Shown here: one piece after another, positions 5,319 to 15,836 of the stretch
How the letters are laid out: each line of letters begins with the position of its first letter
How positions within the stretch are numbered: position 1 is the stretch's first letter
Source of the DNA: Methanothrix soehngenii GP6
GTDB lineage: Archaea > Halobacteriota > Methanosarcinia > Methanotrichales > Methanotrichaceae
Direction: 5' to 3'
Assembly (NCBI RefSeq): GCF_000204415.1
Contig: NC_015416.1
Span: 1,736,001-1,800,000 of the forward strand
Length of the DNA stretch: 64,000 nucleotides
Made by a program: the position numbers and the translations under genes
The notes under the pieces: model-generated
Seen by the model: only the letters and a program-made list of their open reading frames with translations
Database searches by the model: none
What the model was told of the DNA's origin: nothing

Positions 5319-6583
5319 ACTACTCCGGCCTAAAGACCGGAGCTTTCAGTAGCCCTGAAAGGACTGCCTTGATACTTGGAAGTCCTTCCGAGCCTCCAGG
5401 CCGGTCTACATAGCGGCCCAAGAAAGCTATATTCTTAGCACCATTGAAATCAGCATCGCCAGACCAACCACACACAGGACACTTGAAGCTCTTGCTATTC
5501 CTGATTCCATGCTCACCGCACTGATGGCACGTCGGCTGGTGTATGCGGGGTCCACCAGAACCAGAGGAACACCAGCCGCGAGAGCCTTATAGCTAAGGAA
5601 CTCCTTAAGCTGGCAGAAGGCCCAACCATTGACTCTTCGTCTATGGTTTTTTCCTGCTTTCTGGTTGATGCCTTCTCTGATTCCAGTTAAGTCTTCCAGA
5701 GCAATTTTGGCAGGAATCTCCTGGGCTCTGGTCACAATGGCTTTGCTGATTTCGTGGTTGATCTGCCGTTGGTAGCGTGCTTCTTTGCCTGATAGTCGTT
5801 GCTGAAGCTCTCGGCATCTTCGCCTTGAACTCCTTGTACCTTTCACGGCTTTCTGTTGAAGAACAGCACGCATAGACGCATAATGATTCTTGATTAGCTT
5901 GATAGTCTTTCCGCCAAACTTCTGGCCTTCGGAGGTCACAGCTATATCAGTTATACCAAGATCGACACCTAGAACTGTATCAACATGTATCTGCTCCGGT
6001 GCTTCGCTTTTAACCTGGATGTTGATATAGTATTCAGATCCTTTCTTACAAAGCGTTGCGCTTGTCGGTTTAGAATCCTTGAGTCTGGTTCGCTGATAGT
6101 CGCCTAGAACCAACTTGATTCGTTGTCTCGATCTAAGAAGAGTCACGCTGATTTCTTCGTCTTTCTCTCTGAAAGCAAAGATCCTAGTATCATAATCTAT
6201 ACTGGTTGGTTCAAAGTTCTTAACTGATGAATGATCCTTCATGGCAGTCTTACGGTTAGATGCAACGCGATTGATAGCCCTGATTGCCAGATTGGCAGAA
6301 AGACCAAACTTAGCTCGAACATCTTGGTATACAATGCCCTGAATACGGACCTTATTTCTGAGCTTAGCAGGCGTATTCTGGTTTATCCAATTGCAGGCAT
6401 CCGCAAAGGCTTTCAGAGTATCCTCCATCTCTTCGGCCTGGGAGTCTGTTGGACTTAACTTGCATCGGACGGTTAACACCTGCTCAGTCATCAGTAGGCA
6501 GTATAGTCACTAAGTGATATAAAGGTTTTGGTGGGCTACTTACGGCTTTCCTCCCTGCCCTGAAGAGCGGGGCTTCCAGCCTG
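5315..6583 (-). mobile_element. IS200/IS605-type element carrying only tnpB (IS1341 group)
   Basis: The minus-strand element has a subterminal hairpin at its right end (CTCCGG...CCGGAG, 5323-5342) followed by TAGTTTAC, and an imperfect hairpin at its left end (6545-6582) of the common form CCCCGCTCTTCAGGGCAGGG. No tnpA is present. Right-end hairpins of this kind form part of the TnpB guide RNA; the guide would read into the 3' end of hxlR. The gene it carries is frameshifted, so the copy is probably inactive. Boundaries are estimated from the hairpins. Confidence 0.65.
5320..6491 (-). pseudogene. tnpB: tnpB RNA-guided nuclease gene with a frameshift before the zinc ribbon
   Basis: The frame from 6491 to 5427 shows the TnpB RuvC core: LGVDLGITDIAV (first Asp), ALEDLTGIREG (Glu), then LVDPAYTS. 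Just after YTS (near 5532) the frame is lost. Reading the -1 frame restores TCHQCG, KCPVCGWSGDADFNGAKNI, i.e. both CxxC knuckles and the last catalytic Asp, and runs to a TAG at 5320-5322. One missing base therefore explains the defect. Without the shift the product ends in an unrelated hydrophobic tail and lacks the third acidic residue. Confidence 0.85.
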
Positions 6584-8515: not shown

Positions 8516-9625
8516 TCATTCTTCCCTATATCCCAGCTCTTTTGCCTTGGCAAAGGCGGAATCTGACTCTTCTGTTCGATTAAGTGCCTTCAGGGTTTCA
8601 CCTTTGAAATGCCAAATAAGTGCCTCTTGCGGATCAATTTCAATAGCCTTGTTGAAGGCTTCAAGGGCCTCTTCGTACCTGCTAAGGCCATAAAAGGCAG
8701 CGCCCTTGTTATTCCAGAGTATCGCATCTTTTGGATCTAGCTCAATGGCTCTTCCATATGCCTTGACCGCTTCGTCATGCTTTCCAAGATCCGCCAGTGC
8801 ATTTCCTTTGCAATTCCAGGAGCTTGGATCTTTAGAATTTATCGATATTGCTTTATTATAAGCCTGGATAGCTTCCTCTTTCTTGCCTAGGCCAGATAAA
8901 GCCCATCCCTTATTATTCCATGCAATAGCGAACTTAGGTCTTATTGCTATGGCCCGATCATAGGCTTGAATGGCTTCATCATGCTTTCCCGAATTGTCTA
9001 GAGCTATTCCCTTGCCATTCCAAGCATCAGCGGATCTGGGATTTATATCGATGGCATTATTAAAAGCGATTATGGCTTCATCAAACCTATCCAATCTATT
9101 TAGAGCATATCCTTTTTCATTCCATGCTTCAGCGGATTTGGGATATAGCTCTGTGGCTTTATCAAAGCAGGAGATGGCCTCATCAGACTTCATCAGCTCT
9201 AATAAGGCAGCTCCTTTATTCACCCATGCCAATTTGTTCTTGGGATCTTTTCCTATGGCATTATCATAGCATGAAATGGCTTCATCAAATTTTCCTTGAT
9301 CATATAGATCATCCCCTTTCTTGAGCCATTTACTTGCTTCGCGAGATTTCGGGATTCTCATTCTTGGTTCATCGGAATCCTTGAAATCAACAACACTCTG
9401 CGCTTTCTCTGAAGGGGCAACTGAGAATCCAAGCTCCTCTACATTAATGTGGCTTATTCTATCCGTTATCTTGAGAGCAGACTCAAATCGAGTATCATAG
9501 CCTCTGCTTATCACAAGCCCTTTGACGGGAACACTCTTGGCAATCCTTTCTTGCACCCACCCCATATAATTCGAGATTTGCCCGAATGTATTTTGGCTAG
9601 CTCTGACATTTTTTAGCTCTATCAC
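8516..9625 (-). CDS. Downstream part of a split EVE/NucS-like nuclease/TPR protein
   Basis: 369 codons from a GTG at 9625. Residues 1-68 are the second half of a NucS/DUF91-like PD-(D/E)XK domain: IELK at the very start holds the catalytic E-x-K, followed by GQISNYMGWV and PVKGLVIS. After a linker come eight 34-residue tetratricopeptide repeats (about 97-369) with the W-N-x-K-G...A pattern. The Asp and first strands of the nuclease are in the preceding ORF, so this frame alone cannot be a working nuclease. The GTG overlaps the upstream stop as GTGA. See the heptamer at 9634-9640. Confidence 0.8.
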   Translation of the reverse strand: MIELKNVRASQNTFGQISNYMGWVQERIAKSVPVKGLVISRGYDTRFESALKITDRISHINVEELGFSVAPSEKAQSVVDFKDSDEPRMRIPKSREASKWLKKGDDLYDQGKFDEAISCYDNAIGKDPKNKLAWVNKGAALLELMKSDEAISCFDKATELYPKSAEAWNEKGYALNRLDRFDEAIIAFNNAIDINPRSADAWNGKGIALDNSGKHDEAIQAYDRAIAIRPKFAIAWNNKGWALSGLGKKEEAIQAYNKAISINSKDPSSWNCKGNALADLGKHDEAVKAYGRAIELDPKDAILWNNKGAAFYGLSRYEEALEAFNKAIEIDPQEALIWHFKGETLKALNRTEESDSAFAKAKELGYREE

Positions 9626-10311
9626 TGTAAATCGTTTTTTATCCGGTTATAACAGAGAAGATCAATTCGCCCGCCATTCCCTTTGCATATAAATTGCCTT
9701 ACGGTTTGATTTGAGATCGGGTCATTATATAATTCTAGATTATATTCAAACCTTTTTAGAATATCCAAATTAGCTACCAATGCATCTTCCAGATCTTTTT
9801 CCAATCCTATACTTTCCGCTATAGGCAGTCGTTGAGTATTCTCGATGAAATCTTTATATCCTGGATTATTTAAAGCAAGCAAATTATTAAGCTTGTTCCA
9901 GTATTCTAGCGATATTTTAAAATTGCTTCCTTGAAAACTGCATCGGAGAGGCCCCCACTCATCAAAATACGGATTCTGTCGCAGGTCCTTTGCATGAAGG
10001 GATTGCTCGAACTTATAGAGGACTTCGTAATCGCAGCCATAATCCCATCCCTTATCATTGTCATCTGCAATAGAATATGCATCGCTCTCTGCTTGAATCA
10101 AATAGCGGATGTCTTTTTTGGGTGATGTTCTCCATAAAAGAACAAGGTCACCCTCTTTGGTTGCTTTATTGCAGGTCCACCAGCCATCTGAGTCAGCCCC
10201 CAATGTGGGATCAAGATCTTCCCGATCGCAACCATCTTCATCCAGATAGTAATCAGGACGAGTCACCCAAAGCCAGTATTGGCGCTCGTTAGATTCTGAA
10301 ATGTCTAACAC
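9622..10311 (-). CDS. Upstream part of the split protein: EVE domain plus N-half of a NucS-like nuclease
   Basis: 229 codons from a GTG at 10311 (start uncertain). Residues 9-125 look like an EVE domain: YWLWVTRPDYY at the start, then KEGDLVLLWRTSPKKDIRYLIQAESDA. EVE domains relate to PUA/YTH folds and read modified bases in DNA or RNA. Residues 165-229 begin a NucS/DUF91-type PD-(D/E)XK fold (LEKDLEDALVANLDIL, GRIDLLCY with D217). The frame stops one strand before the E-x-K motif. It begins 34 bp after res, so it belongs to the restriction operon. Confidence 0.75.
   Translation of the reverse strand: MLDISESNERQYWLWVTRPDYYLDEDGCDREDLDPTLGADSDGWWTCNKATKEGDLVLLWRTSPKKDIRYLIQAESDAYSIADDNDKGWDYGCDYEVLYKFEQSLHAKDLRQNPYFDEWGPLRCSFQGSNFKISLEYWNKLNNLLALNNPGYKDFIENTQRLPIAESIGLEKDLEDALVANLDILKRFEYNLELYNDPISNQTVRQFICKGNGGRIDLLCYNRIKNDLQ
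9634..9640 (-). promoter_or_regulatory. Candidate -1 ribosomal frameshift heptamer A AAA AAC
   Basis: On the minus strand the EVE frame reads ATA AAA AAC GAT TTA CAG TGA. The AAA and AAC codons plus the preceding A form A_AAA_AAC, a classic X_XXY_YYZ slippery site in the correct phase. Slipping back one base gives K-N-R-F-T-V-I-E-L-K and enters the nuclease/TPR frame, making one protein of about 598 residues with an intact D...ExK core. I see no strong stem downstream. A plain one-base loss is the main alternative. Confidence 0.35.
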
Positions 10312-10345: not shown

Positions 10346-13300
10346 TCATTCGATCGACCCTGATATCTGTATTAGTCCCTTTATCCAATCATCAATGGCC
10401 TCTTTTGCGGTATTCATGTCATCCAGCTCTTTTTCCTGATGGGCAATATACTCATTTCTGAAGGAATAAATTTTATCGATAGTATCCAATATATCCTTCT
10501 TCTCTGCACCCGCAAATTTGCTTTTGATCGCAGAGAAGATCCCACCGGGCGGAACCCGAGGGCTTTTTGCATACTCCAGACACCATTTCAATAGCCCTAT
10601 GGGCATTATCCCATCGTTCTCCAGAAGAGTCCGGCGCAAGTTGAACGCTTGCCTCTTATGAAAGCTCTCGTCTCTTGGATGCAGGACGCTCAAATCAGGC
10701 TCAAAGAACCTCTGCCTCTTATTGGGATCATCGGGAATGGCACCTTTTAGAGTTGAGATAATGTATCCTTTGGCGGCTTCATCCACTGCTCCCAGAAGCG
10801 GAGCGAAGACCGGAGAATAGGAGACTCCTGTCTTGTTCTCCAAGAATTTGAAGAGGGCTATCGCCTCCTGAACGCCCTTTCTCGCTTTCAAGGGCAGGCG
10901 ATCGAAATCCTCATCGCTAATGAATTCATCCAGTGCTATCTTCTCCAGGTTGCCCTTCTCCAGGCTCAAGGGAGCTTCTATCTTCTCCCGGATGAGGTTC
11001 TGCTTGGCTGGTTCGCATAAGGAAAACAGTATCTCAACCTTATTATCATCGATCTGGGAGAAGGTCTCCTGGGGAACATAGAGGTACTCCCATTTGATTC
11101 CGCTATCTGAGGCGGCCTGACACCAGGCCATCGCCGCCCGGATCTTGAGGGGAACGTCTATGTCCACCCTTCCCTTGGTCTCAAGCATGACATAGCTGCC
11201 TCTATCGTTCAGGATTATGAAATCAGGAGTATAATGAGCCAGCCTGCCGGTATGGGTCTGATAATCGATCCTGATCGCCTCCGGCCCGGCATTTCTGAAG
11301 AAGGCCTTGACATCGGGAGCCCGGTCTAAGAACAGGGCCATATCCCTCTCGAAGGCGTTGGTACATGGAACCAGGTTGAAGACGGTCTTGGTGGCCTCAA
11401 TGGTGGGATGGCGCTCGGAGTGGTTGGCCTGGTAGGGCTTCCATTGAACCACCGATCTGCCGCTGCCAATTGCTCTCTCCTCCAGTTTGATGGTGCTCTT
11501 GCTCAGGATGAGTGGCACGAATACGCCCCGAATATGCTCCCTGACATCGTGATCCGCCAGGCGGTTGATCAGGCGCTGGTCGAAGAGGGACACTCTCTCC
11601 CCAAAGAGCATGTCAGTCAGGAATATCTCCAGCAGGGGGGCGAGAGAGGAGTGAAGACCATGCAGGCCGGTGATATGCTCCAGCTCGCTGCGGTAGAAGG
11701 ATATGGCTCCCACTCCGCTCTCCAGCAGGGGGAGCTTGATGTTCATCTCCTCCACGATTTCATTGGTGATGAGCGTTCTTCCTTCGTAGTGGATCTCGTC
11801 GGAGGACTGCTCTTTGAGCTTTAAATGTTTAAGGGCTGAGAACTGCTTCTTCACATCCTCAATGGTCAGCCCTTCCAGCTTGGGAATGCGGGTGTAGGCG
11901 GGGGAGATGGAAGGGACGAGCATATCCAGTTGATTTAGGTCCTTGTGCTCACCATCGGGAAAGATGCTCACAGTGATCTTGGGAATTTTATCAGGACCTA
12001 CAATCGTTGGATAAACGCCTTCTTCGCCCAACTGGTCTTGATACAATTCAACGAATTTCCAATGTTCTATGACGGTTAAGATCTCATGAGGGCCGCCGGG
12101 GTAGGTCATGCGCCGCAGACCCCGGCCCAGGGTCTGCTCAGGAAGGATGTTGGCATCAGAAGTAAATGGTCGGAGGGGAACAATGGTGGTAACGTTTCGG
12201 ACGTCCCAGCCCTCCCTGAGCATCAGGACGGATACGATGCATTGATAGGGGCTGGTTCCCTGGTCAAGTTCGCGGGAGAGTTTTCTTAATTCCCTCAGAT
12301 CCTCGTCTTTGATATCCTTCTCGCTTTCCTCGAATACCGGTATACCGCTCTTCTTTCCGCCCATCCATTTGATCTTGCCTTTGAGGCGGGTGTGGAGGTT
12401 TATGGTCCGGCCATTAAGCTCTGAATACAATGAGGAGCTATTCAATTCCCGGGCGATCTGATCTGCGGCCTCGGTATTCTCAGCCATGATGAAGAGCAAC
12501 GCCTTCTTGCCGCTCTTCTCCCATTCCTCTCTGGAGAGAAGCCAGCGCTTGTATCCGATCATCAGGTGCTGCTGGAATCGGTCTGCCGCATTCTCGCTGG
12601 GGCGCTCCACCAGCCCCTCGCCCCGCCCTATAACCGGGATCTTGACTATGCCCGCGTCCACTGCTTCGCCCAGGGGGGTATCGCAGATCACATGCTGGAA
12701 GATTCTGCCGTGGTTGTCCTTGGGAGTGGCGGAGAAGTCCAGCTGGGAGACGATCTCTCCTCCGGTTCGATCATGGATGGTCTGGTGGACATATTCAATG
12801 GCATCATTCCAGGCACTGTCCGGGTCCCAGAGATGATGGGCCTCATCGTTCAGGACCATAATTTTACGGTGGGAGGTCACCCGCTCCCTCAATGCCTCTC
12901 CGGTATCAAGGGCTCTGGACCTGGAGACGGCAGGGCCTAGCCAGTCGTGGCTTTCCATCAGGCTCTTTGACCTGCGTTTTGAGGTGTCATAGAGGCGGTG
13001 AATGTTGGTCAGGTAGATCCTGCCCCCGGTGGCAGCTCCGCTGGCCTCGTCCTGGAGGACAACGGAGATGTTCCAGTCCCCTCTCCAGGCTTCGGGGATG
13101 AGTGGGTCTGCTTCGAAGACCTTGCCGTCCCCGAAGTCCTCCTTGAGTCGCTCGAAGACGGTGATATTGGGGGCGATGATGAGAAAGTCCCTGGCCAGAA
13201 TAGAGTCCTCCTCTCGCAGGGAGTGAAAGTAGCTCCAGACTATGGCCAGGCTCATCACTTTGGTCTTGCCCGAGCCGGTGGCCATCTTGAAGGCGTATTT

Positions 13301-13780
13301 GGGCCAGCGGTCGTCGTCGGGATTCACACCCAGGGCGGTGTCGTAGGAGTCTTCCCCCAGAAATTCGGCGGTGATGGTGGAGAGGGTGCGAATGCCCCGC
13401 ACTTCGTAGAGGTAGATGAATGTCTCTATGGCTTCTCTTTGGCAGAAGTAGTAGCGGAATGGGATCTGCTGCCCATCATTCTCTTTTAGGTGCTCTTCGC
13501 CAAACCAGAAATGGAGCAGGTCTCTGGTGGTCTGGGATGCGCCGGGATAGTCGCTATCTCGCCAGTCTTTAACGAAGCGGCGCAGGTTCTGAGCTATGGG
13601 GATATATGAGGGACGGCGGCCTGATATGATCTGGGCGGGATCGCCCTTCCCTTCGCCTGGGGCGCGATATCTGCAGGGCTCTTCAAATGTCTGGTAGAGA
13701 GGTTCCAGGGCGGCCAGATTGACCACCGGGCTGGCACCGTTGCTCCGGGCGGTGCCTCTGCTCTCATCGGCTTCAGTCAT
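10346..13780 (-). CDS. res: Type III-like restriction enzyme Res subunit (SF2 helicase/nuclease)
   Basis: 1144 residues. The helicase core has motif I MATGSGKT (166-173), motif II DEAHH (312-316), motif III SATP, and motif VI with [12 protein letters not shown]-(D/E)XK nuclease site sits near residues 849-866 (TPDFII...LETKGR). The C-terminal 250 residues are helical and end in a coiled-coil-like [10 protein letters not shown] segment. Res subunits translocate or switch on DNA using ATP and cut when Mod meets unmodified sites. Its ATG overlaps the mod stop by 8 bp, so Mod and Res are coupled. Confidence 0.92.
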
Positions 13781-15836
13781 AGCGGACCTCCACTACGGTG
13801 CTGGTATCGCAGCCGAAGATGTCGACCACCTTGATGCAGGCTTTGTAGACACCTTTGCCCGGATAGCCATCAAAGAAGGCATCGCTTGTGGTCTTGAGGC
13901 TGCGGTCCCTGCGGGTGCGGTAATCCTGCCACTGGTGCTCGAAGGGCTTGCCCTCCTGCCAGTTGAAGTCCACCGCCCAGAAGTCGATGAAGTCGAAGCC
14001 GTCCTTTGCCGCCCGATCCTTGAGAGCAGCCAGCTCCTTGCTGGGGACCTCCGCCAGGGAGGGAATGAACTTCTTGAGAATGATATCCACCTTCTTCTTC
14101 CCGGAGACCTTTTTGATTACCGGCTCGGCCTCCAGCACTGCCACCTCAAAGAAGGGTGGTGGAGCGGTCCGGTTCTTCTCCATGATCTCTCTGGGGATGG
14201 TGATCAGCCTGATCCGGACCTCTTCGGAGGCCTCGATCTCCTGGCAGACCATCCTCAGATCCATCTCGAACTCCCAGGCCAGGCAGTGGACCTCCTTGCC
14301 ACCTGCCTCGCGGGCGGCGCGAGCTACGGCCCTGACCTCTTCCCTGGTCAGGAGAGAGTCGATGCTGTCCACATAGACGAAGGCCCCGCCCTTTCTGCCG
14401 TGCAGCCATGCTGTCGGATTCGCCAGTGGATCGGCGCGGTAGAATCCCAAGACAACCCGACGGTGATCACGGTCGAAGCCCTGCAGGCGCTCTCTCTGCC
14501 ACCACTGCCGTTCATATCGGCCCAGGTTGTAGACGTCGAAGGCCCGGTAGGGCTGGCCATCCGCCTGGAGCCTGCGCTGAAGGTCGATCAGCCGCTTTCT
14601 GCTGGTGTGGATGGCGAAGCGGCCCAGGTCGCACATGATCCAGCGCCGGCCCAGCCGCTCCGCAACGGCACCGGTGGTGCCAGAGCCGCAGAAGAAGTCG
14701 GCGACCAGGTCGCCCTCTTTTGTTAGAGCCTCAATAATTCTTGAGACCAGCTTTTCTGGCTTTTGAGTTGGATAGCCTTGTGCCTCTTTGGAGTACCCCA
14801 ATGCATTGCCACTAATATCCGTCCAAATATTGGGTAATTGTGAACCTAATTCTTCCCGTTCCTGCAAATAATATTTTTCTCGAATAACATCTGTGAATAC
14901 GAGTCGGTTGTCATTTTCTAATTTGTGCATACGGCTTTCATTAAAACGCCAGCCCTTTTTTGGGCATGGCCATACTCTTCCACGATTATCTGTGTAATCA
15001 TAAGTTGTTTGGGGGCCTGGATTCGAAGTTTTGATTATGGGTTGTGTCGTATATGCACCACGTCCATCTCCATCATCTTTATTATATAATTTTCTCATTT
15101 CATCTGACAATTCACCACGAAAACCAAAGAACTGATAGGTATCTGACTTAGTGCACCAAATAATATAGTCAGAATTCTTGGGCAAATTACCCGAAACGGT
15201 TTTTCCAGCAGAAGTTCGCTGCCATACTATTTCATTTAGAAAATGTTCTTCTCCAAAAACTTCATGCAGCAATAACCGTATATAGACATTGACTCTCTGG
15301 TCACAGTGAACGAGGATGTGACCACTTTCAGCCAATAAATCATGCATCAATACCAATCGCTCGTATATCATATTGAGATATGAATCAGTGCCATTTCCCC
15401 ACATATCTCGATAGGCCACCATTTCTAGGAGTGATTGGTCTTTTTCTGCAACATCATCAAAATCACCCAAAGGCACCTGCATCGTAAAGTCCGCCCCCAC
15501 ATCGAAGGGCGGATCGATGTAGATCAGGTCGATCTTGCCCCGGAAGTCCTTCAGGAGCGAGGCCATCACCAGCTTGTTATCGCCCCAGATGAGCATGTTT
15601 CGAAAGTCATACTGCCGGGTGGTCTTCAGCTCTCCCAGGGTGGTCTGACCCCCGGCCAGGGCCTCGCTCCTGGGCATGTCCACGGTCTCAATCTTCTGCA
15701 TGGGCATGGCACTGCCTGCAACGTCCACCGGGCGGCGAAGACCGTACTCATCATACTTGCCGTCCCAGACCAGCTCGGTCTTCCTCCCACAGAGCGGATG
15801 GAGGTTGTCAGGCCCCCGGCGGACGGGCTCAGTCAA
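13773..15836 (-). CDS. mod: Type III-like site-specific DNA methyltransferase Mod (beta-class adenine-N6)
   Basis: 687 residues from a TTG at 15836 with GGGAGG 9 bases upstream. Motif IV DPPF (108-111) precedes motif [11 protein letters not shown] (about 378), the beta-class order used by Type III Mod proteins; the target-recognition part lies between them. That middle part (about 14720-15480) is clearly AT-richer than the GC-rich ends, suggesting an exchanged recognition domain. The C-terminal 200 residues probably contact Res. The first ~80 codons and the upstream region are copied again at 16.8-17.1 kb. Confidence 0.9.

Follow-up and report, generated by a model that had tools for sequence, protein, structure and literature searches.

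The window, a stretch of 64,000 nucleotides from the genome of Methanothrix soehngenii GP6 (3.03 Mb in two contigs and related to Methanosaeta/Methanothrix MAGs), contained two overlapping ORFs on the minus strand, which lay next to the genes of a type III restriction-modification system (Table 1). Pfam profile searches revealed an EVE domain in the upstream ORF (PF01878, E=1.5e-5, 25.5 bits against a cut-off of 23) and a TPR array of seven stretches in the downstream ORF (PF00515 TPR_1, E=1.2e-68). Together with the profile matches in the relatives, these results showed that the original prediction had read the EVE, PD-(D/E)XK and TPR domains correctly. The upstream ORF was 61-88% identical to its homologues, and the downstream ORF matched the C-terminal region of a single 597-codon frame in the nearest of them at 84% identity.

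Table 1. Features of the split EVE-nuclease-TPR gene and its upstream neighbours (positions in the window)
Feature	Position	Strand	Evidence
Upstream ORF, 229 aa, from a GTG to the TGA at 9624-9622; encodes the EVE domain, a helical linker and the first half of the nuclease core, as far as the catalytic Asp (GRIDLL)	9622..10311	-	ORF + sequence
Heptamer A_AAA_AAC, phased with the upstream ORF and containing six A's; the frame breaks here by one base	9634..9640	-	sequence
Part continued in the -1 frame, encoding the half of the nuclease core with E-x-K (RFTVIELK) and the TPR array	8516..9633	-	
Downstream ORF as listed, 369 aa, GTG at 9625-9623 overlapping the upstream TGA	9625-8516	-	
Type III restriction-enzyme-like (res) gene, open throughout, immediately upstream	10346..13780	-	PF04851 ResIII E=2.2e-16; PADLOC REase_III E=1.7e-20
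mod gene (type III methyltransferase), frame uninterrupted	13773..15836	-	PF01555 E=2.9e-42; PADLOC MTase_III E=3.2e-221

The minus strand at the junction read GGC GGG CGA ATT GAT CTT CTC TGT TAT AAC CGG ATA AAA AAC GAT TTA CAG TGA. This sequence confirmed that the upstream frame broke at a phased A_AAA_AAC heptamer, and that the TGA, the fourth codon after the AAC, was overlapped by the GTG of the second frame, both as predicted. The junction also fell between GRIDLL and IELK, as had been claimed, so that the catalytic Asp was in one frame, E-x-K was in the other, and neither polypeptide contained an intact PD-(D/E)XK core. A -1 shift on the AAC produced I-K-N-R-F-T-V-I-E-L-K, in which the CGA codon of the R in RFTVIELK began with the C at 9634. 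After the shift, the span from GRIDLL to IELK was 21 residues long with none missing, the same as in the nearest homologues, which agreed with the predicted repair of the fold. An AlphaFold model of the N-terminal part of the fused protein from the nearest homologue had low confidence (pLDDT 53.5) and was used solely for the strand order around the nuclease core; in it, the break mapped to the turn joining strand 214-218 to strand 223-230. Translational coupling at the GTGA overlap was considered and rejected: no SD-like sequence preceded the GTG, and its Val was internal and conserved in the homologues L017, L019 and L020. Transcriptional slippage is unlikely on six A's and was also set aside.

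The domain content of the unbroken protein was analyzed in the nearest homologue (L017 in genome G019, Methanosaeta sp. PtaU1.Bin112), which consisted of an EVE domain, a YhcG_C/NucS_C-like PD-(D/E)XK core and TPRs and matched the phage-defence candidate family PDC-S02. Its nuclease scored 36.6 bits with PF06250 YhcG_C and 24.7 bits with PF01939 NucS_C (cut-off 24), and by these profiles appeared nearer to YhcG_C than to NucS_C, both of which are PD-(D/E)XK families; the GRIDLL...IELK core is common to this branch of the nucleases. An intact PD-(D/E)XK core in an EVE-carrying polypeptide (PF06250) was present in both L017 and L019. With the NCBIfam equivalog NF003270, the L017 protein reached 25.2 bits against a cut-off of 216 and thus fell outside the NucS endonucleases. 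The likeness to NucS was confined to the C-terminal nuclease domain, whereas the NucS N-terminal domain was replaced here by EVE. A Foldseek search with the low-confidence L017 model gave weak matches, the best solved structure being NucS/EndoMS (E about 1e-3), and a PDB sequence search with A2 found nothing. EVE-PD-(D/E)XK proteins have already been described as predicted modification-dependent (type IV) restriction enzymes (PMC7641849), and the intact gene is predicted to belong to this known kind. Similar to those proteins, it combined an N-terminal EVE domain, the sensor of modified bases, with a PD-(D/E)XK nuclease in a restriction neighbourhood; unlike them, it carried an additional C-terminal TPR array, which the main text of that paper does not mention, and its nuclease core was broken in the window. 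Judged from its domains, the intact protein would have restriction activity, with the cutting of DNA containing modified bases as its likely function. In related genomes, the EVE type was also joined to another nuclease, in EVE-HNH-like proteins (L013:973-2616 and L016:1135-2355) whose HNH-type motif was recognized by eye.

The neighbourhood differed between the window and the nearest homologue. The upstream neighbour of the latter (L017:4048-4989) was an Mrr-type restriction endonuclease gene with an overlap of a few bases, in contrast to the type III restriction-modification genes in the window. The N-terminal 80-105 residues or so of the type III mod protein (window 13776-15836, minus strand) matched isolated short stretches of several related genomes and had a further match in the source genome (G000:C1:1752790-1753026), at a second place which lies some 1 kb upstream of mod, as if this piece were a mobile or recombining segment.

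Four homologues crossed the junction (61-88% identical), and all four were in a single frame. The nearest, L017, had one frame of 597 codons, with 88% and 84% identity to the upstream and downstream halves, and its junction was ACA AAA AAA CGA, with seven A's in frame, whereas the window had ATA AAA AAC GA with six. The other junctions were ACC AAA AAG AGA in L019 (from a MAG labelled Bacteroidota; 71%/48%), AAC AAT AAT CGT in L011 (genome G034; 64%) and AGT CGG GGA CAG in L020 (genome G026; 61%), each in one frame. The G034 homologue stopped before any TPRs, and the G026 homologue, in frame at the junction, had a TAA within its EVE domain (L020:5214-5216), an independent and unrelated lesion of the same gene. 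G002/L018 (89% identical) was left out of this comparison because its sequence ended just short of the junction. Profile searches covering the phylum (393 genomes) and the family (50 genomes) yielded 19 further nuclease cores that covered GRIDLL to IELK; none of the 19 was split at the junction, and their A-runs were five or shorter. A comparable A-run was found only in L017, in which it was longer and in frame. The alignment of the four crossing homologues and the 19 distant cores thus revealed uninterrupted frames and no conserved heptamer, where programming would have called for the same split in several species, and this is an outcome that the original prediction had named as refuting it; the fused state was seen here in relatives of other species rather than in strains of the same species. 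No homologue of the upstream ORF was found in the plasmid records, and no relative was found in the viral contigs.

The heptamer itself was not a reserved signal in the source genome, since phased A_AAA_AAC was counted at 19 sites in ORFs of 200 aa or more totalling 1.06 Mb, a set that came from part of the genome and may include spurious ORFs. If the ancestral run was (A)AAA AAA C in frame, as in the nearest relative, the heptamer, its phase and the exact repair would all follow from the deletion of any single A. The phase would then be an automatic outcome and gives no independent evidence for programming. The alignment also permitted the lost base to lie immediately upstream of the A-run, in which case the same repair would follow. 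Stimulatory structures of archaeal -1 frameshifts are spaced 5-9 nt from the slippery site (PMC8211752). Folding of the 84 nt past the heptamer was no better than that of shuffled sequences (z -0.46; 65 of 200 shuffles as good) by a method that does not cover pseudoknots, and no structure was found by it at the 5-9 nt spacing. A local stretch with a z of about -2 started some 30-40 nt downstream, and its hairpin was lost in L017. No SD-like element was visible by eye upstream of the heptamer.

Analysis of selection showed that the window copy was not evolving in a relaxed manner. Between the window and L017, dN/dS was 0.084 for the part upstream of the junction and 0.151 for the part downstream of it, and when the amino-acid changes were polarised with L019 as the outgroup, 7 fell on the window and 8 on L017 in the upstream part, and 16 and 15, respectively, in the downstream part. 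Both halves were under purifying selection, without an excess of change in the window copy. Given the balanced changes and the low dN/dS, the downstream half has been selected as a protein until very recently, or still is. Such a pattern would be expected if the mutation is fresh, if the assembly is in error or if expression continues at a low level, and the break is probably either very recent or an error of the assembly.

The best explanation is that one EVE-PD-(D/E)XK nuclease-TPR gene was broken by the loss of one base, through a recent mutation or an assembly error, and not by a programmed switch (probability about 0.87). The base would have been lost in or right beside the short A-run, in the turn between the strand of the catalytic Asp and that of E-x-K, and the phased heptamer would be the mechanical residue of the loss of an A from an in-phase A7C run. 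Under standard decoding, the product would then be an EVE protein whose nuclease core stops halfway, while the E-x-K/TPR half would be untranslated or poorly started at its GTG, and nuclease function would presumably be lost. The single-frame homologues, the seven A's against six, the balanced changes, the lack of a fold at the heptamer and the survey of Antonov et al. (PMC3711429) argue for the one-gene explanation; on the other side, only L017 shares the A-run, and the lost base may lie just upstream of it. Of the two possibilities in the original prediction, the fresh one-base loss in the A-run was thus supported by the fused relatives and the longer run of L017, whereas the programmed -1 switch of nuclease production found no support in the homologues, in the heptamer or in the structure at the required spacing. 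Slippage of the ribosome by -1 at A_AAA_AAC, incidental or exploited, could nevertheless provide some full-length nuclease, as in fucA1 of Saccharolobus solfataricus, a -1 frameshifted alpha-L-fucosidase. This was the only archaeal case counted in a 2021 review (PMC8211752), which bears out the remark in the original prediction that hardly any archaeal cellular gene is known to use a programmed -1 shift. In both genes, a heptamer with an A-run separates two ORFs, the second of them in the -1 frame, and the full-length relatives are one A apart, so fused relatives exclude a conserved programme but not local slippage. In fucA1, the break is at strain level and slippage occurs at A-AAA-AAT, at about 5% in E. 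coli and at about 10% in vitro with an archaeal translation system; its full-length product was shown experimentally, and the gene also has tandem rare codons, a putative stem-loop and an identical break in a second strain (PMC8211752). The split in the window, in contrast, is known from the sequence of one strain and has no structure at the required spacing. Although the exact phase, the restoration of all conserved residues in the -1 product and the continued purifying selection on both halves favor slippage, the heptamer was common in ordinary ORFs, its phase was automatic after the loss of one A, it was not conserved, and the one relative with an A-run had a longer run in frame, without a stimulatory structure or a visible SD-like element in the window; slippage is therefore an improbable explanation. 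It is similarly doubtful that the break is real and that slippage is frequent enough to yield small amounts of the full EVE-nuclease-TPR protein, a potentially harmful nuclease that is kept scarce. A phase-variable A-tract, in which replication slippage turns the nuclease on and off, seems very improbable. Defence genes are often phase-variable, and six A's stood against seven in the nearest relative; however, the tract was short and absent from L019, L011 and L020, no variable repeat tract was found in the EVE-nuclease-TPR gene or the adjacent type III genes, and such a run was ordinary, with 573 six-base and 204 seven-base A/T runs in 1.2 Mb of the source genome.

Within the loss of a single base, a genuine strain-specific indel that recently inactivated the nuclease has a little better than an even chance, and an assembly or sequencing error, with the run called one A short and the gene intact in the living strain, is a substantial but lesser possibility. 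An error is suggested by the position of the break at a homopolymer and by the purifying selection in both halves without excess change in the window copy. Antonov et al. attributed unclustered frame breaks to sequencing errors or recent indels, and expected singleton breaks validated by BLASTp to stem from sequencing errors and not from genuine indels (PMC3711429). Against an error, a census of 1.2 Mb of the 3.03-Mb source genome and 0.64 Mb of G019 (156 orthologous ORFs, 44,276 aligned amino acids) revealed the EVE-nuclease-TPR break as the only frame break, which implied that homopolymer errors are infrequent in the assembly, although a single error could still have occurred. Real one-base breaks also seemed to exist in the genome. 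The TnpB gene (OrfB_IS605; window 5427-6491, minus strand) was frame-broken near 5534, before the zinc finger, and was one base short at a non-homopolymer site compared with six near-identical copies in the genome. Among seven other full-length TnpB copies (98-99% identical), five were open at this site, L175 had the same one-base break, and L171 had a different two-base break. The break shared by the two roughly 98%-identical copies suggests that it is real and was copied on. The nonsense codon in the EVE part of the G026 homologue indicates that the gene decays elsewhere too, and the low break rate across the assembly is likewise in favor of an indel, which would have to be very young since no relaxed selection was visible. 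The clean census tips the balance slightly towards mutation.

Where an A-run carries a one-base break, a phased slippery heptamer is weak evidence of recoding, since every in-phase A7C run that loses an A is left with one. Unless the break is both real and leaky, the annotation should be corrected to one broken defence gene instead of two genes; if it is real and leaky, the gene would be the second archaeal cellular case of a -1 frameshift beside fucA1.
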